NCBI GenBank assembly: GCA_937930305.1
Contig: CALGLE010000012.1
Location: 28,509 to 92,508, forward strand
DNA: 64,000 nucleotides
Direction of reading: 5' to 3'
Source: an uncultured Granulosicoccaceae bacterium
Lineage (GTDB): Bacteria; Pseudomonadota; Gammaproteobacteria; Granulosicoccales; Granulosicoccaceae
Below, piece by piece: positions 62,281 to 64,000 of this stretch. Under the pieces are notes generated by a model. That model made no database searches. It saw only the letters and a program-made list of their open reading frames with translations, and had not been told where the DNA came from. The translations under genes and the position numbers were made by a program. Every line of letters starts with the position of its first letter. Position 1 is the stretch's first letter.

Positions 62281-62377
62281 AAAGGTATTTGGCTTGGCAT
62301 TTTAAGCTGGATCGAGCGTTACTGCCGCCATGACACCTTAGCGTTGAAATTAGTCCATGAATGTGAGGGGAAATGTG

Positions 62378-63325
62378 ATGGCAGTGAACCGAAAGTCGAT
62401 CGCCAACGCGGTGTCAGGCAGTGGCATTCGTACCGGGCAGCAGTATCTTGAAGGCCTGCGCGACGATAGAGAAATTTGGACTGGCGGCAAAAAAATTGAC
62501 GATGTCACCGCAGAGCCTGGTATGGGGCGAGGGGCCGAAACCCTGGCCAAATTTTTGGACAAGCAACACAGCACCGAATTTCAGGATTCTGTGACATACG
62601 TGGCCGATGACAACCATCGTTGTGCGATGGCATTTAAAGCGCCTAAATCGGTAGAAGATGTAAAAGCGCGCGGCGTGGCCTACTACGAATGGGCCAAATG
62701 GTCTAACGGCATGTTTGGCCGTACCCCAGATTATAAAAACGCTTCACTCATGGCGTTTGCTTCCGCCCCCGACTTTTTGTCTCAAGGCACGAAAGGGCCG
62801 GGCGGGGCTGTGATGGCGCAGAGCATGGTCAATTTCTATGATTATGTTCGCACCAACGACAAGGTGCTCACCCACACTTTAGTAAACCCTGCCATCAATC
62901 ATGCGCAGGCGGCAGCTGGAAAATACTCAGGCAAGGTAGCCCTGCAAGTGGTGAAAGAAACGAATGAAGGCATCGTTGTGAATGGTGCGCGACTGCTGGC
63001 CACACTGGGCCCCTTAGCCGATGAAATTGAAGTGTTTCCATCTACTGTGCTGAAAGGATCAGATGAAAACATCCCCTTTGCGTTCGCGTTCGCTATTCCC
63101 ATTGCCACCCCGGGCTTAAAGCTCATTTGCCGCGATACTTATGATCACGGGAAGTCTAATTTTGATGCGCCTTTGTCCTCTCGTTATGAAGAGATGGATG
63201 CGGTGGTTATCTTCGAAAACATTTTCGTTCCTTGGGAGCGCGTGTTCATGTATGGGCAGCCTGAACTGTGCAATCAGGCGTTTAATGCCACCAACGCGGT
63301 GGTGCATATGGCGCATCACCCATAG
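62378..63325 (+). pseudogene. hpaB: 4-hydroxyphenylacetate 3-monooxygenase (HpaB) gene, 3' truncated
   Basis: ATG 62378 has GAGGGG 7 bases before it. The 315 residues are a clear HpaB/PvcC-family N-terminal and central part: SGSGIRTGQQYLEGLRDDRE, MVNFYDYVRTNDKVLTHTLVNP, YSGKVALQVVKETNEGIVVNGARLLATLGP, and near the end FVPWERVFMYG and NATNAVVHMAHH. The family runs to about 480-500 residues; the flavin and tetramer-forming C-terminal helices are gone. Right after HMAHH the homology stops, a stop codon follows in frame, and another frame continues as the DctP tail. So the gene was cut at about 63316 by a deletion reaching into dctP. It should be inactive. Confidence 0.85.
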
Positions 63326-63762
63326 CCATGACAGTCAGCGAAGTGAATCAAGCGCTGTCAAACGGTGTTGTGGATGGTGTGATGATTGATCCAGCGGGTA
63401 TTGGATCTTTCAAGTTGCACGAAGCAGGTAAATACATAACCACTTATGTTCCCGGTGGTGCTGCCTCATTCGCTGTAGCTATGTCTAGAGCGGTATATGA
63501 AGGAATGAGTGATGAAAACAAAGCGGCAATAGATCAAGTCGCCAGTTCCGATTTGTCCTTAAACGCAGGCGCCACTTACACCAAAATATCTATGAAAGGT
63601 ATGCAACTGGCTGCAGACAGCGGCTTAGAAATCATTGATATTAGCGACGACGAGCGTGCAAAAATGCAAGCGATCGTCGACGAGGTGATGCCTACCGTTC
63701 TTGAATCAGCTGCGGGTGACAAAACGGTGGGTGATATCCACAAGCTTATGACGGGCAGCTGA
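63319..63762 (+). pseudogene. C-terminal fragment of TRAP-transporter solute-binding protein (DctP family)
   Basis: In the frame of the 63328 ORF the homology opens just before that ATG (PIAMTVSEVNQALSNGVVDG, a DctP pattern that normally follows GATP) and runs to the natural end (MPTVLESAAGDK, 147 residues). Real DctP proteins have about 320-340 residues with an N-terminal signal peptide, so about half the protein and the export signal are missing. It overlaps the truncated hpaB by the junction. No DctQ or DctM membrane genes follow; the nitrilase comes 46 bases later. A relic. Confidence 0.82.
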
Positions 63763-63808: not shown

Positions 63809-64000
63809 ATGAGTCACGGACCCTTAGGAAAAATCGTCAAGGTAGCCGCCGTGCAGGCGGCGCCGGTCTTGCTCGACTTAAACGCAGGTGTTGAGAAGGC
63901 GGTGGGCCTGATCGACGAAGCTGGGCGCGCCGGTGTTCAGCTGATCAATTTCCCCGAAACTTGGCTGCCTGGCTATCCGTGGTGGATTTGGCTGAATCCG
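63809..64000 (+). CDS. nitrilase-family (carbon-nitrogen hydrolase) gene, start only
   Basis: Opening at ATG 63809 and running off the window end, 64 codons are visible. [24 protein letters not shown] is the first strand-helix, and [15 protein letters not shown] contains the catalytic Glu in the form typical of true nitrilases (aliphatic or aromatic), as against amidases. The downstream Lys and Cys of the triad are off-window. No Shine-Dalgarno is clear. It may belong to the same aromatic/nitrile catabolic set as hpaB. Confidence 0.85.

Follow-up and report, generated by a model that had tools for sequence, protein, structure and literature searches.

In this work we have investigated the end of a 64,000-bp stretch of DNA (the window), which belongs to a draft genome of 55 contigs (94.7% complete) and which ends where its contig, C12 (92,508 bp), ends, inside a nitrilase repeat. 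Remnants of two genes lie here in the same orientation. The first, hpaB' (62378..63318, + strand), is the 5' 63% of a 4-hydroxyphenylacetate 3-monooxygenase-type gene, 313 codons and 2 bases long. Its reading frame runs from the ATG at 62378 to the stop TAG at 63323-63325; the frame is equally open from a second ATG upstream, at 62357, and the closest relative, that of locus L003, aligns from MAVNR. The HpaB_N domain is whole (Pfam; profile positions 1-270 of 270, E 2e-81) and the C-terminal HpaB domain (PF03241) is missing from the ORF. Against TIGR02309 (HpaB-1, NCBIfam) the remnant scores 319 bits over positions 2-291 of 477, below the curated cut-off of 480 bits, while the intact HpaB of L003, which shares 92% amino acid identity with it across 318 residues, reaches 529 bits. 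The relatives of hpaB are intact, about 490-518 aa long, with the C domain present. PF03241 was not found anywhere in the window's own genome, at its 94.7% completeness, and a search for hpaC there gave nothing beyond a weak 33% match containing a stop. No close copy of hpaB except its own was found in 47 genomes around this genome. The best match to this hpaB subfamily in the plasmid collection searched was 42%, and the subfamily does not appear to be plasmid-borne in that collection.

The second remnant, dctP' (63310..63762, + strand), is the 3' 46% of a gene for a TRAP solute-binding protein, the last 150 of about 325 codons. Its ORF (63328-63762) lies in a different frame from hpaB' and begins inside the protein: it matches positions 161-281 of 286 of the DctP profile (PF03480, Pfam; E 5e-12), lacks the signal peptide and the first half, and does not hold both halves of the solute-binding fold. 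Its product is 72% identical in amino acids to a DctP encoded on a Yoonia plasmid. There are 20 DctP matches in the genome bin, the nearest to dctP' being a 48% paralogue on contig C1, and no close dctP except the genome's own was found in 95 genomes around it. When the Yoonia DctP was compared with 399 genomes of the phylum, relatives of 47-54% only were found outside the window's own locus. The C1 paralogue belongs to a dctP-dctQ-dctM set (C1:53400-56200, equal to L094 8404-11198, genome G000) with DctP at 48-54% and DctM at 72-74%.

How exactly do the two remnants meet? The DNA homology of hpaB ends exactly at 63318 in 27 of 29 relatives (blastn of the region against the fetched hpaB loci); of the other two, the match to L025 ends at 63252 and that to L031 is partial. 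Past 63318 the hpaB relatives carry GGTGGC-type sequence (QVA), whereas the window reads CCCATA. The DctP-frame homology already begins at 63310 (GASPIAMTVSEVNQAL against GASPVAMPVSEINQAL in Yoonia), and the two homologies overlap by nine bases, 63310-63318 on the + strand. This tract, GGCGCATCA, fits both the hpaB and the dctP parents. It is identical in 9 of the 23 hpaB relatives compared; in the DctP frame, where the junction reads GGC GCA TCA CCC ATA GCC ATG (GASPIAM), it encodes Gly-Ala-Ser, which is conserved among close DctP relatives, and the Yoonia dctP matches it at 7 of 9 bases. Nine bp is an upper bound for the microhomology, as its dctP side is drawn from residue conservation. The chance of obtaining Gly-Ala-Ser from three random codons is about 4/64 x 4/64 x 6/64 = 4e-4, and at some 4 in 10,000 the overlap between hpaB and DctP is unlikely to be accidental. 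As far as sequence can tell, the nine-base overlap bears the mark of a deletion through microhomology. No repeats, element ends or element remnants were found at the junction and there is no step in GC content across it; the junction sequence had no match in IMG/VR, a result which is uninformative. A preliminary description of this DNA had ended the HpaB homology after VVHMAHH, started DctP homology in another frame at PIAMTVSEV and placed the junction at 63316-63320. The HpaB homology does stop there, but the last H is already foreign (Q in the relatives); the DctP homology in another frame is borne out and begins slightly further upstream, and the junction was located correctly to within the ambiguous tract. 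The microhomology at the parental breakpoints which that description proposed to look for is the tract itself, up to 9 bp, with the dctP side read through conserved residues.

Downstream of dctP', the window closes with the start of a nitrilase gene (63809..64000, + strand; 64 codons, PF00795), cut by the contig end, and its last 141 bp recur unchanged at one end of contig C53. We compared all 110 contig ends and found that 20 end pairs share sequence, 17 of them by exactly 141 bp, the C12/C53 ends among these; the constant length indicates contigs from a k=141 graph which breaks at repeats. The preliminary description would have fallen to an assembly join of distant contigs. A k-mer join artefact at 63310-63318 is unlikely, since this assembly breaks contigs at overlaps of exactly 141 bp, and in a graph of this kind 9 shared bp do not suffice to join two contigs unless reads span them. 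The nitrilase itself is the two-copy repeat that broke the assembly (63809-64000; C53, locus L033, 1-183 and 6039-6908 on the minus strand). Read along its minus strand, C53 carries a nitrilase C-terminus that continues in frame into dctQ (an open frame of 289 residues), then dctM, a gene for a reductive dehalogenase of 1069 residues to which a reductase domain is fused (rdhA), araC on the opposite strand and a second nitrilase start, identical over 141 bp to the window's end. A linker of about 90 residues, rich in Ser, Thr and Pro, joins the nitrilase C-terminus to dctQ, a possible nitrilase::DctQ fusion gene. The simplest path would be hpaB'-dctP'-nitrilase1::dctQ-dctM-rdhA-araC(-)-nitrilase2, in which the nitrilase middle has presumably collapsed into a small node outside the bin. 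It is one way of resolving the repeat: dctQ and dctM sit on C53, the collapsed nitrilase is their sole link to C12, and the bin does not contain the exit of nitrilase copy 2. The rdhA gene (C53, L033, 1408-4617, minus strand) encodes what is by sequence a self-sufficient catabolic reductive dehalogenase. It scores 210.9 bits against TIGR02486, above the cut-off of 160.4; residues 160-736 match the NpRdhA-type structures 4ras/6zxu and residues 750-1065 match the phthalate dioxygenase reductase 2pia. It thus has the self-sufficient architecture, a reductive dehalogenase with a C-terminal phthalate-dioxygenase-reductase-like domain.

An intact relative of the dctP side exists on the plasmid NZ_CP151764.1 of Yoonia sp. 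SS1-5, in the order dctP-dctQ-dctM-rdhA-araC(-)-nitrilase, the same gene content and order as in the block from dctP' through C53 (identities of 72% for DctP, 87% for DctM, 71-80% for RdhA and 87-91% for the nitrilase ends). Unlike in the window, dctP is intact there, hpaB is absent from the stretch and no nitrilase copy lies between dctP and dctQ. In this cluster (L082 9752-15251) rdhA and the nitrilase gene are each split across two frames, and the Yoonia copy too may be decaying, or may hold sequencing errors. Two genomes of the window's own genus (G023 and G024) carry an intact dctP, about 40% identical to that of Yoonia, before dctM and rdhA. On the hpaB side, three loci titled Granulosicoccaceae (L009, L019 and L020) have the order hpaB-hpaC-rdhA; in L003 a gene for an HpaE-type dehydrogenase follows hpaB, and rdhA was not found in that genome. 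Hence hpaB and dctPQM are each tied to rdhA, and from these partial linkages, dctPQM-rdhA in Yoonia and the two congeners and hpaB-hpaC-rdhA in the family members, we conclude that the scar probably sits in a bromo-aromatic catabolic cluster. Debrominated 3-bromo-4-hydroxyphenylacetate is a substrate of HpaB-type enzymes. The RdhA of Jhaorihella thermophila (JtRdhA), which like that of C53 is a self-sufficient fusion of RdhA with a reductase, enables growth of E. coli W on the brominated compound (PMC10463259). A link between hpaB and rdhA is thus biochemically sensible. Neither TRAP genes nor a nitrilase nor HpaB are mentioned in the paper on JtRdhA. The substrate at the window's locus would follow by analogy. 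Bromoxynil is a nitrile. The bhbA bromoxynil cluster on pBHB of Comamonas sp. 7D-2 (PMC10463259) likewise serves a bromo-aromatic pathway with a self-sufficient RdhA (49% identity); its transporter protein is annotated as the tripartite tricarboxylate type, not DctP, and there is no hpaB in the stretch shown. Our literature search for a reductive dehalogenase together with a TRAP transporter and a nitrilase found no paper.

We propose, with a probability of about 0.72, that a recent deletion through a short microhomology (up to 9 bp) fused hpaB to dctP and left two pseudogenes. Slippage or end joining, in a single event, would have fused hpaB codon 313 to dctP codon 176 out of frame; hpaB would have lost its C-terminal domain and DctP its signal peptide and first half, together with all the DNA that separated the two genes. 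Both genes would once have stood in one brominated-aromatic catabolic cluster, in an order of roughly hpaB(-hpaC)...dctP-dctQ-dctM-rdhA-araC-nitrilase. The TRAP importer would thereby lose its own binding protein and the cell its HpaB-type hydroxylation, with rdhA and dctM staying open; the dctP-dctQ-dctM paralogue on C1 might serve the orphaned permease. The preliminary description had likewise held that one deletion took the last third of hpaB, the intervening DNA and the first half of dctP, a reading that is largely right. There is good support for a deletion that joined hpaB' to dctP': the homologies meet at one point on a nine-base tract, PF03241 is absent from the bin and intact relatives exist. 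The deleted content and the earlier adjacency are what we infer. The search for intact counterparts suggested in that description turned up relatives of each gene, but no genome examined has this hpaB beside this dctP and none of the congeneric strains preserves the locus as it stood before the deletion, so that their prior linkage is deduced from the two partial linkages through rdhA. As to age, hpaB' differs from L003 at 16, 13 and 153 sites in codon positions 1, 2 and 3 (pairwise dN 0.043, dS 1.44). No stop interrupts either remnant within the part that is retained, and such undecayed remnants point to a recent deletion. It would be young relative to the split from L003, and the pairwise figure gives no finer date.

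Could an incoming fragment, instead of a deletion, have produced the junction? The main rival is illegitimate recombination, by insertion or translocation, of an already truncated dctP-nitrilase-dctQM-rdhA fragment into hpaB. The closest intact cluster is plasmid-borne and lies near a Tn3 transposase, and the gene upstream of its dctP is a MarR gene, not hpaB; moreover, the congeners searched yielded no close relative of hpaB or of this dctP. However, a simple insertion predicts the 3' part of hpaB nearby, at its other end, and this part is absent from the genome, while the linkage of hpaB to rdhA in three family members supports a prior linkage. We therefore consider an insertion unlikely. 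Several events, in which hpaB and dctP were truncated separately (e.g. through an insertion element since lost) and ended in this junction, would accord with a neighbourhood that is otherwise rearranged: a nitrilase copy follows dctP', and on C53 the C-terminus of a nitrilase is fused in frame to dctQ. We regard such a history as quite improbable, because the junction shows neither a repeat nor the remnant of an element and both homologies reach the same nine bases, as one event predicts. That two unrelated molecules were joined at 63310-63318 in the assembly or library is hardly credible: the genome is a 55-contig draft and a chimeric read formed through the shared tract is conceivable in principle, but the assembly breaks at repeats with 141-bp overlaps (17 pairs) instead of joining through them, 9 bp is far under the k-mer sizes of assemblers, and neither of the missing halves turned up at another place in the bin, where a chimera of two intact loci would leave both.

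Deletion scars associated with microhomology which produce fused pseudogenes are a known kind. The fusion of hpaB' to dctP' likewise shows two truncated genes in different frames, a few shared bases and the loss of the intervening DNA, with no essential difference. The scar is ordinary genome decay which wrecked both genes, in an interesting neighbourhood. It is very doubtful that the deletion was instead an adaptive rewiring which placed nitrilase-dctQ-dctM-rdhA behind the hpaB promoter; if it were, the cluster might serve brominated hydroxyphenylacetonitriles, e.g. breakdown products of sponge bromotyrosines, with the in-frame nitrilase::DctQ fusion and with the C1 DctP paralogue perhaps serving the orphaned permease. 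Under the deletion and decay that we favour, the scar would mark, in a marine genome of the Granulosicoccaceae type, a cluster for brominated aromatics with a TRAP importer, a nitrilase, a self-sufficient reductive dehalogenase and an HpaB hydroxylase, and it suggests that the dehalogenase can stay open when the modules for hydroxylation and import are lost. Calls of gene presence for hpaB or this dctP in this genome would be wrong. The dehalogenase gene is present in 17 of the 24 genomes carrying this hpaB. Homologues of rdhA also occur in 18 of the 57 genomes searched around the window's genome (itself included), mostly of the same genus, and this spread suggests a widespread potential for aerobic debromination in these marine bacteria.
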